Assembly: GCA_009773205.1 (NCBI GenBank)
Contig: WPAE01000007.1
Coordinates: 62,001 to 126,000 of the forward strand
Origin: Ignavibacteria bacterium
Lineage (GTDB): Bacteria > Bacteroidota > Ignavibacteria > Ignavibacteriales > Melioribacteraceae
Direction of reading: 5' to 3'
Length of the DNA stretch: 64,000 bases
The position numbers and the translations under genes were made by a program. Numbering within the stretch: position 1 is the stretch's first letter; each line of letters begins with the position of its first letter. This document shows, in pieces, positions 1 through 62,861 of this stretch. Below the pieces are notes generated by a model. It ran no database searches, had not been told where the DNA came from, and saw only the letters and a program-made list of their open reading frames with translations.

Positions 1-697
1 ACAACGCTCCAATACCTACATCATCAATTCCAGCTTCTAAAGCTCTATCCATTGCATACAACCGCCATGCATAATCGCTCTTTGGCCCATCTGGATGCAT
101 TTGCCTGTATGTATTGTAGTGATATGTTTCTTGAAAACATTGATATGTTCCAATTCCAAAAGTTTTTAGAGTTTTAAAATTTTCTACACTCATTGGAGCA
201 GTATTTACATTAACGCGGCGTATGTTTCCTCCATTAACATTTACATTGTAAATGGTGCTTACGCATTCACCAATAAAACTCATTTTTGCTTTTTGTGGAT
301 GCTCGCCGCAAACAAGCAATACTCGTTTATGCCCTTGTCCAACTAAGTATTCAGTTTCATTTCTCACTTCATCAACTGTAAGGCTTTTTCTAGTAAGTTC
401 TTTATTATCTCTTCTGAAAGCACAATACATGCAGTTGTTGACACAAAGATTTGTAACATAAAGCGGCGCAAAAAGAACTAATCGGTTTCCATAAATTTTT
501 TCTTTAACGTCTTTAGCAGTATTGTACATCTCTTCCAAAAGAACAGTATCTGTAATATTTAACAAAGCAGCGCTTTCTTGTAGTGTTAAGCCTTTTGCTT
601 CTTTGGATTTATACAGAATTTCTCTCTGAAGTTCTACGCTGCAATGATTTTTATCTTCAATCAGCGAAAAAATCTTCAATTCATCTATAAATTCCAT
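1..697 (-). CDS. hydG: [FeFe]-hydrogenase H-cluster maturase HydG, N-terminal part (cut by window edge)
   Basis: Radical SAM enzyme that cleaves tyrosine to supply CO and cyanide ligands for the hydrogenase H-cluster. I read 232 codons from an ATG whose first base is 697, preceded by a GGAAG ribosome-binding site. The frame stays open to base 1, so the C-terminal half is missing. The radical SAM cysteines are C85, C89 and C92 (CVNNCMYC), preceded by the stretch LFAPLYVTN that is typical of HydG and its paralogue ThiH. ThiH (thiamine synthesis) is the main alternative. HydG is favoured by the LFAPLY-NxCVNNCxYC context and the early sequence, but the diagnostic C-terminal CxxC extension lies outside the window. 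Confidence 0.85.
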   Translation of the reverse strand, partial: MEFIDELKIFSLIEDKNHCSVELQREILYKSKEAKGLTLQESAALLNITDTVLLEEMYNTAKDVKEKIYGNRLVLFAPLYVTNLCVNNCMYCAFRRDNKELTRKSLTVDEVRNETEYLVGQGHKRVLLVCGEHPQKAKMSFIGECVSTIYNVNVNGGNIRRVNVNTAPMSVENFKTLKTFGIGTYQCFQETYHYNTYRQMHPDGPKSDYAWRLYAMDRALEAGIDDVGIGAL

Positions 698-851
698 TTT
701 TCTTCCATTTTGAGATTACACTAATTTTGTCAATAATTATACCACTTGTACAATACTGAATTTTGTTAAAAACGAAGCGAAAGGGCTGGTTTTTCTTAAA
801 AGAGAGAAGGTTTAATGTTATTCTTCCAAAACTGGAAAAAAGAACAAGAAA

Positions 852-873
852 AGCGGTTGCTTAACTAACCGCA
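852..873 (-). terminator. Hairpin terminator at the end of the LD-carboxypeptidase gene
   Basis: On the minus strand GCGGTTAG and CAACCGC form a stem around TTAAG, followed by TTTTCTTG. The stem overlaps the stop codon of the upstream S66 peptidase gene, so termination is coupled to the very end of that reading frame. Confidence 0.6.
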
Positions 874-1805
874 CTTTCTGTTATATCAATTGTTCCTAAA
901 GAGGCATTTAGAGTGCATTGAACGCCAAATGGAACTGTGATGTTGTCTTTAATGTGTCCATGCTTAACATTGTACAGCACCGGAAGTTTTAATTGCTTTT
1001 GGAAGTACTCAATAACCACCTCATTTAGTGAGAATGTGCTCTTTGTTGGGTCCATTTCAACACAATCTACAAAATGACCAAGTATTACACCATTTAACTG
1101 CTTAAATACTTTTAATAGTCTAAGTTGATTGAGCATTCTATCAATTCTGTAAGGAGCTTCATTGATATCTTCCAGCATTAAAATAGAATCTTTCATTTTG
1201 GGAAAGAATTCTGTTCCAATTAACGATGAAAGGACAGTCAAATTTCCGCCTAATAATCTGCCTGAACCTCTTCCCTTGCACAAAGTAAAGAATTTTTCAT
1301 TGCGAGGGTTTTTGAGTTTACCAATTTTCTTATCGGATGTTATCGTTCGCCAAAAGATTTCTTCAGTAAAGGGGCTTACTTCATCATAAAAATCTACGGC
1401 TACCATTGGCCCAGCGAAAGTGATTAACCCTGCCTTAGTATAAAAAGCAGTTTGAAGCGATGTAATATCGCTGTAGCCGACAAAAATTTTGGGGTTCTTC
1501 CTAATTAGATTATAATCAATTTTATCAAGGAGTCTTCCTGAACCATAACCACCTCGGATGCAGAAAATTGCTCTAATCTCTTTACGCTTAAACATATAAT
1601 GTAGATCATCGAGCCGCTGTTGGTCTGAACCTGCTAAATAACCTTCTTTAGAGCCGGCATTTTTGCCAACTTCAACTCTGTAGCCGAGTTTTTGTAAGTA
1701 ATTTACACCGCGTTCAATTCTGGAAAGGTCTTCAGGTGAGGATGCCGGAGAAATTATTCCAATTACATCTCCGTTATTCAGTTTTTGGGGTTTTAATATC
1801 GCCAT
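861..1805 (-). CDS. ldcA: Muramoyltetrapeptide LD-carboxypeptidase (peptidase S66, LdcA/MccF family)
   Basis: Serine peptidase that removes the terminal D-alanine from tetrapeptide stems during peptidoglycan recycling. It has 314 residues, the normal family length. The nucleophile is Ser112 in GYSD, Glu212 sits in MLEDINEAPYR, and His284 lies eight residues before VPFG, matching the Ser-Glu-His triad spacing of the family. There is no signal peptide, so it is cytoplasmic. It appears monocistronic, with its own terminator and about 115 bp separating it from phoU. A MccF-type microcin immunity role is possible for the family, but nothing nearby suggests it. Confidence 0.88.
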   Translation of the reverse strand: MAILKPQKLNNGDVIGIISPASSPEDLSRIERGVNYLQKLGYRVEVGKNAGSKEGYLAGSDQQRLDDLHYMFKRKEIRAIFCIRGGYGSGRLLDKIDYNLIRKNPKIFVGYSDITSLQTAFYTKAGLITFAGPMVAVDFYDEVSPFTEEIFWRTITSDKKIGKLKNPRNEKFFTLCKGRGSGRLLGGNLTVLSSLIGTEFFPKMKDSILMLEDINEAPYRIDRMLNQLRLLKVFKQLNGVILGHFVDCVEMDPTKSTFSLNEVVIEYFQKQLKLPVLYNVKHGHIKDNITVPFGVQCTLNASLGTIDITESAVS

Positions 1806-1922
1806 TATTACTCTTTAGAACGTTCTTGTTCACAAGATAATAAATGCACTAAAAGGAAGCAAAATTTTGACAATTCAAATGTGAAAATTTTCGAAAAATT
1901 AATTTTCTTAATCGGATTGCAG

Positions 1923-2600
1923 CTATTCTTTTGCTGGTTTGTTTAATCTTTTATAGTGCGTAACTACTCTTGCCTCAATAAAAAAGACCAAGTTTTCTGC
2001 AATGTTAGTTGCGTGATCTGCTAATCTTTCAATCTGCCTTGTAAGAATTAAAAGGTGCGCTCCGGCTTCAATAACAGAACTATCGGCTTGCATTTTAGAA
2101 ACCAAAAATTTGAAATTTTGTTTATTAAGACGATCAACTGCTTCATCGCTATTTAAAACTTCTTTTGCCAGTTCATTATTATTATGAATAAAAGAATCAA
2201 TTGCCTTTTTTAGCATATCTCTTGCGCGTTGTGCTTCTTCCAATATTTGCGATTCTTTTATCAAGTCGCTATAAGCAGTAGTTTTTTTTACTCTCTGGGC
2301 AATGTTTACGGCAATATCTCCGCATCGTTCTAACTGATTGTTTATCATAAGAACGGACATAACAAAACGTAAATCGCTTGCAAACGGAGTAAACAAAGCT
2401 AATGTATTCTCGCATTGAGTTTGAATTAGATTATCGTAAGCATCAACTTCTAAATCTTTTGCTTTGATTCCTTTGCAATGCTCAATATCTCCAGTTTCAA
2501 GAGCAGTAATTGCGCTTTCAACCATTTCATCTACAACAGAAGCCATTCTGATGAGATTAGTTTTGAGATTTTCGATTTCTTGTCTAAAACGTTCTTGCAT
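1923..2600 (-). CDS. phoU: Phosphate transport/signalling regulator PhoU
   Basis: PhoU links the Pst transporter to the sensor kinase and keeps the Pho regulon off when phosphate is plentiful. The 225-residue protein is all-helical by composition, with two repeated PhoU domains. Each carries an acidic metal-binding motif; ERCGDIAVNIA in the first and ERLADHATNIAENL in the second are clear. It is the last gene of the pst cluster, 11 bp after pstB, the standard order. No two-component kinase or regulator is visible beside it. Confidence 0.93.
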   Translation of the reverse strand: MQERFRQEIENLKTNLIRMASVVDEMVESAITALETGDIEHCKGIKAKDLEVDAYDNLIQTQCENTLALFTPFASDLRFVMSVLMINNQLERCGDIAVNIAQRVKKTTAYSDLIKESQILEEAQRARDMLKKAIDSFIHNNNELAKEVLNSDEAVDRLNKQNFKFLVSKMQADSSVIEAGAHLLILTRQIERLADHATNIAENLVFFIEARVVTHYKRLNKPAKE

Positions 2601-2611
2601 AATTTCCTCTC

Positions 2612-3373
2612 TTATCCAAATCTTCCTCGGATGTAATCTTCGGTTTGTTTTTTATCCGGGGCAGTAAACATTTTTTTGGTGTCGGATAATTCAATTAAAT
2701 CGCCCATATAAAAGAAAGCGCAGAAATCGCTAACACGTGCCGCTTGCTGCATATTATGTGTAACAATAATTATGGTGTAATTATTCTTAAGCTCAAAAAT
2801 TAAGTCTTCAATCTTAGTTGTAGAAATGGGATCGAGCGCGCTGGCAGGTTCATCCATCAGCAGTATTTCCGGTTCAACAGCCAAAGCACGTGCAATACAT
2901 AAACGCTGCTGCTGCCCGCCGCTTATGGCAAGTCCGCTTTTGCCTAAATCATCTTTAACTTCGTTCCATAATGCAGCGCGGGTTAAACTTGTTTCTACAA
3001 TTTCATCTAATTTACTTTTTTCTTTTATGCCATTAATTTTTGGACCGAATGCAACATTTTCGTAAATGGATTTGGGAAAAGGGTTAGACTTCTGAAAAAT
3101 CATTCCAACTTTTTTTCTGAGTTCAACAACATCTATTTCGGAAGAATAAATATCGGTGTCATCAATTAAAACTTTACCATTAATCTTAACTCCGTCTATC
3201 AAATCGTTCATTCTATTCAAAGAACGCAAGTAAGTAGATTTACCGCAGCCGGAAGGTCCAATTAAAGCAGTTACTTTGTTTGGCAGAATTGAAAGAGTAA
3301 TTCCATTAAGTGCCTGCTTGGTTCCGTAATAAAGATCCAGATTTTCTGTAATTATTTTTGGCGCTTCTATCAT
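2612..3373 (-). CDS. pstB: Phosphate ABC transporter ATP-binding protein PstB
   Basis: ATPase of the high-affinity phosphate importer. In 253 residues it shows Walker [10 protein letters not shown] (39-47), the Q-loop in [10 protein letters not shown] (91-100), the signature SGGQQQR (151-157), Walker B ILLMDEP (170-176) and the H-loop in [30 protein letters not shown] is typical of PstB rather than other importers. It lies 9 bp after pstA and 11 bp before phoU in one transcription unit. Confidence 0.96.
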
Positions 3374-3382
3374 TAAAAAATC

Positions 3383-4285
3383 CTAAGAAGTTAATTTTTT
3401 TCTAAATCTATATCTAATAACAATGGCAGTAAAGGAAAGTGAAAACGTGCATAATAATAAAACGAAAGCAGTAGCGTACTGAATTCCTCTTGTAGCTTCA
3501 ACATTAGTGGATTGAGTTGTCATCACATAAATATGGTAGCCGAGATTCATAAACTGATCTGTAAGTTCGCTTGGAAGGTGAGGAAGAAAGTAAGCAGCAC
3601 CAGTAAATAAAATTGGAGCAACTTCGCCGGCCCCTCGTCCAATTGCCAAAATTGAGCCTGTTAGAATTCCGGAAAGTGAGTTAGGAACAACAACTTTTCG
3701 AATTGTTTGCCATTTTGTAGCGCCCAGGGCTAAACTTCCCGCACGCAAATCATCTGGCACAGCTTTTAATGCTTCTTCTACAGAAACAATAACGATTGGA
3801 ATAGTTAAGAAAGCCATAGTCATACTTGCCCAAAGAATATTAGGCTGCCCCCAATTTAACTCTCCATCTGGAGTAAAGATTTTATCCATACCAGAACCAA
3901 CAAATTGGATGAAGAAACCTAAACCAAATAAACCAAAAACAATAGATGGAACCCCAGATAAAGTATTTACAGCAAAGCGAATCATTCTTGTAAAAACAGA
4001 TTTTTTGTTTGAATACTCATTAAGGTAAATAGCAGTAATTGTACCAATTGGTATGCAAGCAACAGACATAATAATAACAAGTAAAACAGTTCCAACAATA
4101 GCCGGAAAAATTCCACCGGCGGTCATTCCCTCTTTAGGCGGCTGAGTTAGAAACTCCCAAGTTAAAAAAGATCTTCCGCCGAGATAAATTTCTAATAGCA
4201 TAAAGACTAAAGCAGAAATAATTAGAACTACAGATAGAAAAGAAAAAATGATCAGAGATTTACCGAGTAATTTATTGTTCATCAC
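3383..4285 (-). CDS. pstA: Phosphate ABC transporter permease PstA
   Basis: Inner-membrane permease that pairs with PstC. It has 300 residues with about six hydrophobic helices and the coupling-helix region ALGATKWQTIRKVVVPNSLSGI that contacts PstB. FGLFGLGFFIQF and GEVAPILFTGAAYF are characteristic PstA stretches. The start codon overlaps the pstC stop by four bases, implying translational coupling. Confidence 0.95.
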   Translation of the reverse strand: MMNNKLLGKSLIIFSFLSVVLIISALVFMLLEIYLGGRSFLTWEFLTQPPKEGMTAGGIFPAIVGTVLLVIIMSVACIPIGTITAIYLNEYSNKKSVFTRMIRFAVNTLSGVPSIVFGLFGLGFFIQFVGSGMDKIFTPDGELNWGQPNILWASMTMAFLTIPIVIVSVEEALKAVPDDLRAGSLALGATKWQTIRKVVVPNSLSGILTGSILAIGRGAGEVAPILFTGAAYFLPHLPSELTDQFMNLGYHIYVMTTQSTNVEATRGIQYATAFVLLLCTFSLSFTAIVIRYRFRKKLTS

Positions 4286-26047: not shown

Positions 26048-26120
<73 letters not shown>

Positions 26121-26125
26121 CTCCT

Positions 26126-26152: not shown

Positions 26153-26242
26153 CTTTGCTCTATATATTACACTCTCAATTGTGAATTCCTCGCCTCGCTA
26201 AAGACGCGAGTCGAAGCGGGTCAATTTGCAATTACTTTACAA

Positions 26243-26316
26243 GGCGCTGTACCCAAGTGGCTTAAGGGGAAGCTCTGCAAAAGCTTTATTCGTCGGTTCG
26301 AATCCGACCGGCGCCT
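26243..26316 (+). tRNA. tRNA-Cys (GCA)
   Basis: 74 nt. The anticodon arm AAGCT-CTGCAAA-AGCTT gives anticodon GCA. Acceptor GGCGCTG pairs with CGGCGCC with one G-T wobble and the discriminator is T, as expected for Cys. T-arm GTCGGTTCGAATCCGAC is intact. A rearranged copy of its 3' half occurs about 304 bp downstream, after a broken GIY-YIG gene. Confidence 0.94.
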
Positions 26317-26337
26317 CAACTTTCCTAAACACATTCT

Positions 26338-26566
26338 ATGTACACCGTTTACATTCTTCTTAGTGAAAAGGACAAAAAAAAGATACATCGGCTTTACTAA
26401 CGATATCGAAAAGAGATTAACTCAACATAATTCCGGTCTTGTAACTTCTACAAGACATCGCCGACCTCTTAATTTGATCTACTCTGAAACTTTTGAAAGC
26501 AAAACTGATGCAATGAAACGGGAAAAAGAAATAAAGAATAAAAAAGGGAAATTTATTATAACTTGA
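26338..26566 (+). pseudogene. GIY-YIG endonuclease-like gene, copy 1 (frameshifted)
   Basis: The ATG at 26338, 22 bases after tRNA-Cys, opens VYILLSEKD, the GIY half of a small single-domain GIY-YIG (URI/UPF0213-type) protein. An 8-A run (26374-26381) shifts the frame; the other frame continues as RYIGFTNDIEKRLTQHNSG and LIYSETFESKTDAMKREKEIK to a TGA at 26566. The second copy has seven A residues at this spot and reads through, so the extra A is the lesion. The intact product would be about 76 residues. Slippage on the A run during transcription could still give some full-length product. Confidence 0.8.
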
Positions 26567-26616
26567 GGGGAAGCTCTGCAACCCCGAAACGAAGTTTCGG
26601 GGCGAATCCGACCGGC
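26567..26616 (+). pseudogene. Partial, rearranged tRNA-Cys copy
   Basis: GGGGAAGCTCTGCAA matches the D-arm end and anticodon stem-loop 5' part of tRNA-Cys, and GAATCCGACCGGCGCCT matches its T-arm and acceptor 3' part. In place of the middle portion stands a hairpin, CCCCGAAAC then GAAGTTTCGGGG. No cloverleaf can form, so this is a non-functional tRNA fragment carried in the duplicated unit. Confidence 0.8.
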
Positions 26617-26641
26617 GCCTCAACTTTCCTAAACATATTCT

Positions 26642-26839
26642 ATGTACACCGTTTACATTCTTCTTAGTGAAAAGGACAAAAAAAGATACATCGGCTTTAC
26701 TAACGATATCGAAAAGAGATTAACTCAACATAATTCCTGACTTGTAACTTCTACAAGACATCGCCGACCTCTTAATTTGATCTACTCTGAAACTTTTGAA
26801 AGCAAAACTGATGCAATGAAACGGGAAAAGAAATTAAAA
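26642..26839 (+). pseudogene. GIY-YIG endonuclease-like gene, copy 2 (nonsense mutation, interrupted)
   Basis: Nearly identical to copy 1 but with seven A residues, so GIY (VYILLS) and YIG (RYIGFTND) are in one frame. A TGA at 26738-26740 replaces the Gly codon seen in copy 1. The frame after it matches copy 1 until KREK, where the inverted repeat of an inserted element begins at 26840 and cuts off the end. Both copies are therefore dead, by different lesions. Confidence 0.8.
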
Positions 26840-27248
26840 ATCACTACTAACCGACTAATTTTTTTCAGAAACGATAAATGAGCCGAATCTAGCCCGCCTG
26901 CATCTTTAGACCAAACATGGCGGGTAGGAAAGGTCATTTTGACAATTTCTGGTTACGATTTCCTGCCCGCCAAGATTAGACTGATGAGGCAGGCGGGCTT
27001 GTCCGCCATCTTGCCCGCCCGCCGTTTTAGAGTAGGCTCATAAATCACTTGTTATTACTATCGTTTAATCATTTTAACAGATAGATTGGGTGGCTTAACC
27101 AAATCAAAAAAAATGGAACATGCATGTGGTAGGCGCAGATTTTTATTACCCCGAGCATTCGGGGTGATTTTCGCTGATAATCAGATCTTAATAAATCATA
27201 ATAATTAGTGTTATCAGCGCTCTATTTTTTTAGTCGGTTAGTAGTGAT
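26840..27248. mobile_element. MITE-like element with 19-bp perfect terminal inverted repeats
   Basis: ATCACTACTAACCGACTAA (26840-26858) is repeated exactly inverted at 27230-27248, bounding 409 bp with no reading frame for a transposase. It has replaced or displaced the end of the second GIY-YIG copy. Inside are a family A repeat (26878-27040), an inverted pair CGCTGATAA/TTATCAGCG (27173-27219) and a small CCCCGAGCATTCGGGG hairpin. I see no clear target-site duplication beyond A-rich flanks. It looks like a non-autonomous element assembled around other repeats. Confidence 0.65.
26878..27040. repeat. Palindromic dispersed repeat, family A, nested copy
   Basis: Begins ATGAGCCGAATCTAG and ends TTTTAGAGTAGGCTCAT, the inverted form of the 8575 copy, with the shared core TAGACCAAACATGGCGGG. 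It contains extra CCCGCC/GGCGGG palindromes. Confidence 0.75.
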
Positions 27249-60482: not shown

Positions 60483-62861
60483 CTAAATAGTAAATCTTGT
60501 TATCAAACCAAGTATAGAGTTTGTTGATTTACCCGGAAATCTATACAAGCGTGTTTGAAAAGCTAAATTCAAATTCTTCAAAACACTGTAATCTGCAACA
60601 AACTCAAATGCTTGTCTATTAAAATTACCAAAGCTTGGACTAAGTGTTGCGGTAAGAGTTAATTTATTTTCAAGCATTCTATATCTTCCGCCTGCTGTAA
60701 AAGTAAAATAGTTGAAAGGAATGTTGCTAATTTCGCTTGAGCTGTACACAAACCCGAATACAGACATTAAATCTTTATCCCAAAAACTATTTAGATTAAG
60801 AGAAAGGTTATTGAACTGCGCATCTGAATTAGCTGCACCGTTATCTTCTCTATCTGATTTTGTAAAAGAAACTGATGAACTATGTTTTATCCCGGCAGAA
60901 AAATCATAGCTAAGCTGAACTAAAATTCTGTTTGTCTGATCATCGATAGCGTATTTGCCTTCTTTGGGATTTGTAACAACTATTCCATTACTGTTGGAAA
61001 AACGATTATAGCCAACAGTGATGTTAGGAAAATCAGCACGCGGAAAAAGTGAAACAGACGCGCTTACTGTTCTAAACTTTGTTGTTGCAATTTTTGTGTT
61101 CTGCAAATTGTCTTGTAAATCTTCGTAACCAAGCGAAATAAAAAGTTTGTTATCTAACATTCTTATCCTATCTACAATGTTTATACCCCGAACATCAGTA
61201 CGCAAAAACGATTGACCGAATGAATGAAAATCATTTCCGCGGTAAATGTAAGACGCTTTAATATTGTTGTTAAGATAGTTCAAACTTAGCGCCGCCTCAG
61301 CTCCAAACGAAGCTAACTCTTGCGGGTTCCAAGGACCGAGATATTGGTTAACAGTGATGAATTTATCAATGTAATCTCTGTACTCTTTTACTTTCTCTGG
61401 ATCAACATCAAAACTGCTGCCGGGACCAAAGATGGAATCAATTTGGGCGTTGGTTAGCGAGCCTGATGAAATATCTTTGTTAAGAAAACTTATTGCTGCT
61501 TGAGAAGTAAGCATAATATTTTTTTCATCGAAGGCAAGCATCAAATCAGAACCAATTACAATATTCTCTTGCGGGCGCGCTCCATATTTAATTGAGTTTA
61601 CTTCATCTTTTCCGTAGAGAGAAGAAAAACCCAGTTGAAAATTCTCGCCGCTGCCAAAAGAAGGGCGCACAACAAAAATCTTACGTTTGTAAGTTCCCAG
61701 CTTAACCTTAGCGTATGGAGTGTTAAGATCGTTTATTTTAATTATATCAGAACCAAGTATTACATCTTTAGCTGTGTACTTTCTAAGTATATTTCCTTCA
61801 ACATCTCTTGCTGTTTCTCCAAAGGCAGCTTGAAAATTAAAAAAACCTAAATTCAATGCACCGCTAAAACCACGCAAACGCTTGCCTTCCATAATAAGAT
61901 TTGGAAAACGTGGATATGAGTCACCAGCTTTTATACTAAGCCAATCGCCGGCATCTAAAGAAGCAGAATACCTGTTGAATGGTTGTTTATCAGATTTTTC
62001 TTCTGAGGTAACGTAGCCATACGCAGAAACTTGTAAACCAGAACCAGAAGCATTAAAATTTGCCGAAGCATTATTGTACCAAGTATTCAGCCTGTTAAGA
62101 TTTTCACTTCTGGATTCTCCACGAAGATTGCCGAAGAGTTTCCATTGAGATTCAATTGCAGCAGCAACTTCCGCCGTTACTACAATGAATTTTCTATTTA
62201 TAGTATGATAAAGATTTCCTTCTCTATCATAGACTTCTATTAACAAATTTCTTGCTGAGCCATCGAAATCAACGGGAATATTTTCTCCTGCAAGAACAAT
62301 TAAATCCCCAGCTATTACAGCTAATTCCGAAACATTTATTCCATTCAAGTAGAATTTAGTTTTTGCTACATCTACACTTTCCGGGGCTCTAACAAAAGAG
62401 ACAGAAATTAATTGTTCATCTTGAGATAGCGTTTCATTTTCAGATGGACTAAGCACTAAAATTTCCTTCTCCTTTTGAGAAACTCCAGCTACAGAAATCT
62501 GTAAAGGATTAACTCCTTCGTCAATTCCCATCGGGTAAGTTTGCTGCTCGCCAGATTTTAAGTTAATAATCAGATAATACTCAATGTACGGAGGCAGAGC
62601 TATTTCCTTTGGTATTGCAGCCGAAGCAGTGTTCCCGACAATGAGCATTTCCATTTTCAGAAACTCAGTTTCTCCAAACGCTTTGTAAGCAATAAAAACT
62701 TCCGAGATATTTTCAGTCGAAATTAATTCTGCTGTAATTGTAATCGGGGTTTTTTCTTTTGCAGTTCCAGCTTTAACTTCGGAAACATAATTACTTACTT
62801 GAGCAACAACACAAACATTAAGCAAAGCAATTAAGAAAAAAATTAATAAAAACTTTTTCAT
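60483..62861 (-). CDS. Large outer-membrane beta-barrel protein of unknown function
   Basis: About 792 residues. The signal peptide (ends VVAQ) is followed by an Ig-like beta-rich N-terminal region (about 20-235) and a long series of alternating beta strands (about 245-792) with a final LGLITRFTI, as in outer-membrane barrels. I use ATG 62861 (MKKFLLIF), with GAGGG just upstream. No TonB plug or porin signature was recognised. The gene precedes the CHASE2 cyclase and follows a FecR protein, so it may be exported structural or sensory machinery linked to that signalling. Confidence 0.6.
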   Translation of the reverse strand: MKKFLLIFFLIALLNVCVVAQVSNYVSEVKAGTAKEKTPITITAELISTENISEVFIAYKAFGETEFLKMEMLIVGNTASAAIPKEIALPPYIEYYLIINLKSGEQQTYPMGIDEGVNPLQISVAGVSQKEKEILVLSPSENETLSQDEQLISVSFVRAPESVDVAKTKFYLNGINVSELAVIAGDLIVLAGENIPVDFDGSARNLLIEVYDREGNLYHTINRKFIVVTAEVAAAIESQWKLFGNLRGESRSENLNRLNTWYNNASANFNASGSGLQVSAYGYVTSEEKSDKQPFNRYSASLDAGDWLSIKAGDSYPRFPNLIMEGKRLRGFSGALNLGFFNFQAAFGETARDVEGNILRKYTAKDVILGSDIIKINDLNTPYAKVKLGTYKRKIFVVRPSFGSGENFQLGFSSLYGKDEVNSIKYGARPQENIVIGSDLMLAFDEKNIMLTSQAAISFLNKDISSGSLTNAQIDSIFGPGSSFDVDPEKVKEYRDYIDKFITVNQYLGPWNPQELASFGAEAALSLNYLNNNIKASYIYRGNDFHSFGQSFLRTDVRGINIVDRIRMLDNKLFISLGYEDLQDNLQNTKIATTKFRTVSASVSLFPRADFPNITVGYNRFSNSNGIVVTNPKEGKYAIDDQTNRILVQLSYDFSAGIKHSSSVSFTKSDREDNGAANSDAQFNNLSLNLNSFWDKDLMSVFGFVYSSSEISNIPFNYFTFTAGGRYRMLENKLTLTATLSPSFGNFNRQAFEFVADYSVLKNLNLAFQTRLYRFPGKSTNSILGLITRFTI

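Follow-up and report, generated by a model that had tools for sequence, protein, structure and literature searches.

The window, a stretch of 64,000 nucleotides from an Ignavibacteria bacterium (assembly GCA_009773205.1, contig WPAE01000007.1, forward-strand positions 62,001 to 126,000), contains an intact tRNA-Cys(GCA) gene at 26243-26317 (+), identified by both ARAGORN and Rfam, that is the only full-length tRNA-Cys match found in this genome. A tRNA-Gly(GCC) gene at 26048-26121 (+) is its conserved upstream neighbour in relatives, and the spacer between the two (26155-26235) holds a dispersed repeat of about 50-60 bp found many times in the genus. The tRNA-Cys gene is followed by two tandem units, spaced 303-304 bp apart and 97% identical, each containing a small GIY-YIG gene. 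A short tail at 26318-26337 (+), repeated in the second unit, separates the tRNA 3' end from the first GIY-YIG gene (26338-26566, +; about 76 codons), the stop of which is overlapped by a copy of tRNA-Cys positions 19-38 (26562-26581, +; D arm 3' side to anticodon loop). This copy is followed by a 21-nt perfect hairpin, CCCCGAAACGAAGTTTCGGGG (26582-26602, +), that replaces tRNA positions 39-56, and then by the displaced tRNA-Cys 3' end, positions 57-75 (26603-26621, +). The second GIY-YIG gene occupies 26642-26838 (+). PF01541 was detected in both window copies, and the assignment was confirmed by Pfam on an intact relative (4e-20).

Both gene copies are broken. Copy 1 is frameshifted by a run of 8 A instead of 7 at 26374-26381, whereas copy 2 has an in-frame TGA at 26738-26740 (codon 33) and loses its 3' end at about 26838, where a neighbouring 409-bp block (26840-27248) begins. 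This block, which is not part of the element, has perfect 19-nt terminal inverted repeats and is a mosaic of dispersed repeats with 68 partial matches in the genome. The arrangement is not due to chance, as a sister genome (G005) has the same two-unit array at the same tRNA with both frames open. In place of CCCCGAAACGAAGTTTCGGGG, G005 has a hairpin with the same stem and another loop. Thus, the original prediction of a tandemly repeated tRNA-Cys/GIY-YIG unit, with a hairpin in the middle of the downstream tRNA fragment and two differently broken nuclease genes, is confirmed, with the refinement that the tRNA piece is not only a 3' part but starts at position 19.

Association of small GIY-YIG genes with tRNA genes

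A search with PF01541 found nine places in the 4.14 Mb genome. Among the small genes, two more sit 40 bp or less from an intact tRNA and have a hairpin-bearing piece of it on the other side (tRNA-Arg and tRNA-Ala), and one lies beside tRNA-Ser at a contig end. In six genomes of the genus, two kinds of small gene were distinguished. Kind A has the tRNA arrangement in nine tRNA types, except where a contig end cuts it and in one inverted-repeat case (locus L030). Kind B has no tRNA and lies among REP-like palindromes such as GTCATCCTGAGCCTGTCGAAGGATGAC, with further palindromes inserted in the loops of some of these. One of the genomes, G001, has three near-identical kind-A units behind tRNA-Leu.

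When an alignment of nine kind-A proteins was used to search the family (Ignavibacteria, near Melioribacter), 52 of 57 genomes had hits, up to 17 per genome and many in tandem. Of 81 kind-A loci read, 67 have an intact same-strand tRNA, and 63 of 65 measured distances are within 100 bp (median 23 bp). Fifty of these loci are of a 3' form and 17 of a 5' form, 17 tRNA types are represented, and most loci have a broken piece of the same tRNA on the other side of the gene. Of the 14 loci without an intact tRNA, eight lie at contig ends, where a tRNA piece is visible at two and the other six were not read base by base, and three belong to an inverted-repeat kind by their place in the tree. In contrast, only 1 of 16 kind-B loci is near a tRNA, and that one is a truncated gene whose score overlaps both kinds. 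In the complete genome G013, all seven kind-A places are beside one of 43 tRNAs, which we estimate to have a probability of about 1e-15 by chance. The association extends beyond the family: in the phylum, 22 of 23 best-per-genome loci have the tRNA, and in a scan of named genomes about 35 of 80 loci, from Patescibacteria, Elusimicrobiota, Fidelibacterota, Bacteroidota and Ignavibacteriota, have a tRNA close by, most of these with broken tRNA pieces.

A tree of 91 GIY-YIG proteins groups by tRNA type, with 31 changes of label against 58.8 in shuffles and none of 200 shuffles as low, although many forks are weakly supported. The protein is under purifying selection, with dN/dS of 0.05-0.18 in the pairs where dS is not saturated; many other pairs are saturated. 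Clean empty sites were found at tRNA-Cys in G001 and G003 and at tRNA-Arg(CCT) in G001 and G002, the latter carrying the element in G000 and G004 with similar downstream DNA. G022 and G045 lack the element while their tRNA-Cys is identical to that of carriers G013 and G043. In addition, G002 has a hairpin-bearing scar without a GIY-YIG gene, and G054 and G036 have gene relics. This is the pattern of gain, decay and loss that is established for homing genes and is inferred here.

Hairpins in the loops of broken tRNA pieces

Exact insertion points were obtained by aligning each broken piece to its intact tRNA. Of 42 insertions that lose no tRNA base and form a hairpin, 41 lie in or at the edge of a loop, against about 53% expected (p about 1e-10, although related loci are not fully independent). 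Recurrent points are the D loop at 21/22 (18/19 in other phyla), the anticodon loop at 35-37, and the T loop after GTTC. The 22-nt T-loop inserts are two adjacent hairpins of 4 bp and 3 nt. Across 11 such sequences from Ser, Pro, Glu and Cys tRNAs, 98.9% of pair cells hold and 15 cells are changed on both sides, but none on one side only, and G-T pairs are rare overall (21 of 678). The stems therefore look swapped whole or kept at the DNA level, as if whole perfect palindromes had been put in, rather than evolving base by base as a conserved RNA structure; selection on RNA is not shown.

A possible homing-type element of tRNA genes

These observations suggest that the window holds a decayed tandem pair of a minimal selfish element of about 300 bp, whose only gene is an 80-residue GIY-YIG nuclease and whose home is a tRNA gene, a reading to which we assign a probability of roughly 0.65. 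The element comes in two mirror forms. In the 3' form, as in this window, the order is intact tRNA, GIY-YIG gene, and tRNA piece with one or more hairpins at or ending at the T loop; in the 5' form, a tRNA piece with one or more hairpins, usually in the D loop, precedes the GIY-YIG gene and the intact tRNA. We propose that the nuclease cuts the tRNA gene in a loop and that repair copies in the element, which carries the tRNA end lost at the break, so that one working tRNA is rebuilt and the old end is left behind next to the hairpin. An element that destroyed the tRNA-Cys gene, the only full-length match in this genome and in most relatives, would be expected to be lethal. Because the rebuilt tRNA is again a full target, repeated events or unequal recombination would give tandem arrays, such as the three units in G001 and G178 and the eight in G106. 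The latter array (locus L284, positions 689-3452, contig C34) has hairpin-bearing pieces that look like tRNA-Met 3' ends, and no intact tRNA was found at its head. The suggestion in the original prediction of spread by homing or repair at tRNA genes is supported, but cleavage, transfer and the role of the hairpins are inferred, as neither cutting nor movement has been observed. Several features do not fit readily with this model. The rebuilt tRNA is uninterrupted and its sequence is the same in carriers and non-carriers, so that the element does not appear to block its own presumed target as classic homing genes do. Recoding of the tRNA in carriers as self-protection was rejected, since tRNA-Cys is identical in the carriers and non-carriers named above and also in carrier G011 and relic-bearing G054. 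Moreover, the protein is little more than the catalytic domain, with no separate DNA-binding part to give specificity, and at least one hairpin class is also dispersed elsewhere in a carrier genome, so that the hairpins may be separate elements.

The alternative that survives best, though we consider it unlikely, is that the hairpins and the GIY-YIG genes are separate things, with dispersed mobile palindromes (REP-like) landing in dead tRNA copies because these are neutral and the genes merely preferring tRNA neighbourhoods. Consistent with this view, the Leu hairpin CCTGTCTACCGACAGG occurs at 12 other intergenic places in G001 (0 for a reversed-pattern control), and hairpins can be nested or tandem. 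However, this alternative is at odds with the placement of insertions in tRNA loops, with the presence of hairpins in the broken copies of all nine tRNA types seen in the genus, and with the recurrence of a two-hairpin architecture with different stems in different genomes and tRNA types. Plain tandem duplication, in which a GIY-YIG gene was caught between tRNA copies and the spare copy decays, is more doubtful still. Arrays of up to 8 units are common, and T6 SegB arrays arise by amplification between short homologies (PMC13096335), but in most single copies the similarity between the flank of the intact tRNA and the outer flank of the broken piece stops within about 0-14 bp of the tRNA, although the piece itself is mostly 90-100% identical, which a random tandem duplication would not give. 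In addition, the GIY-YIG gene is on the strand of the tRNA in all 67 loci counted and tracks tRNA type, and decay would not give perfect hairpins in loops. A domesticated function, such as tRNA supply under attack by tRNA-cutting defences, is very improbable despite the purifying selection and the joint amplification of tRNA and nuclease in T6 (PMC13096335), because the array multiplies broken tRNA pieces rather than working tRNAs, presence is patchy with scars and relics, and both window copies are broken.

The proposed logic equals that of the mobile ORFs (mORFs) of fungal mitochondria (Allomyces atp6; Glomus atp6, atp9, cox2 and nad3; PMC3630166), in which an endonuclease gene sits in a conserved host gene, with a complete, working gene rebuilt with an inserted end on one side and the displaced native end on the other. 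Those elements invade protein genes of mitochondria, with a LAGLIDADG gene in the atp6 case, whereas here the presumed target is a bacterial tRNA gene, the nuclease is a bare 80-residue GIY-YIG domain, either end of the gene can be the one presumed rebuilt, and the presumed displaced end carries hairpins in tRNA loops. SegB of phages T4/T6, a free-standing GIY-YIG homing endonuclease near tRNA genes, likewise forms tandem arrays of tRNA plus nuclease gene (PMC13096335), but the T6 array repeats tRNA-Tyr with segB, where here only a broken tRNA piece is repeated, and no favoured tRNA isotype is reported across phages. We saw no broken tRNA pieces with hairpins in loops in either system. By sequence profile, the nearest solved relatives are the small UPF0213/YhbQ-like GIY-YIG proteins (PDB 1zg2, 1ywl) and SLX1 structure-specific nucleases, the latter having further domains; phage homing endonuclease PHROGs were hit weakly. 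Double-hairpin or repetitive hairpin elements of mitochondrial DNA (PMC2800124) and bacterial REP-RAYT systems (PMC2817692) also include short perfect hairpins that look mobile, but no nuclease gene is linked in the mitochondrial cases, and RAYTs are tyrosine transposases rather than GIY-YIG proteins. Integrative elements with att sites in tRNA 3' ends keep the tRNA whole and leave a partial tRNA repeat, yet only a GIY-YIG gene and no integrase lies between the repeats here, the unit is only about 300 bp, and the piece is interrupted by hairpins. A group I intron was also rejected, as the tRNA is uninterrupted and no intron family was found in the window. We found no earlier description of the bacterial element in the open-access literature searched.

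Genes of this type are found in genomes of many bacterial phyla and carry only a generic nuclease name. If our reading holds, a large share of them are selfish elements specialised on individual tRNA genes, which explains where they sit, why they come in tandem and why broken, hairpin-spiked tRNA pieces litter these genomes. It would also give bacteria a counterpart to fungal mobile ORFs, what looks like one of the smallest protein-coding selfish elements, and a direct test of how a bare GIY-YIG domain finds one tRNA gene among forty. A more speculative and rather unlikely possibility is that the hairpin-bearing half tRNA is itself a working part that, as folded DNA or RNA, directs the nuclease to its own tRNA type, or is the substrate pasted into cut loops; small GIY-YIG genes of bacteria in general (tRNA type, inverted-repeat type and REP-associated type) would then be a large class of palindrome-using mobile elements. 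The inverted-repeat type, seen at 12 loci including L030, is framed by TTCACCCYGTTARATAAT ... ATTATYTAACRGGGTRAA at about -38/+40, is similar in Patescibacteria, Bacteroidota and Balneolota, and looks like a separate mobile unit of about 300 bp that is not at tRNAs. In G005, the tRNA-Arg(CCT) 5' half and its leader are duplicated on two contigs, as a conventional integrase att site would be. Finally, at two loci a nearly full-length tRNA-Cys copy with the hairpin lies just upstream of the intact tRNA-Cys without a GIY-YIG gene between them, perhaps representing a 5' form that lost its gene.
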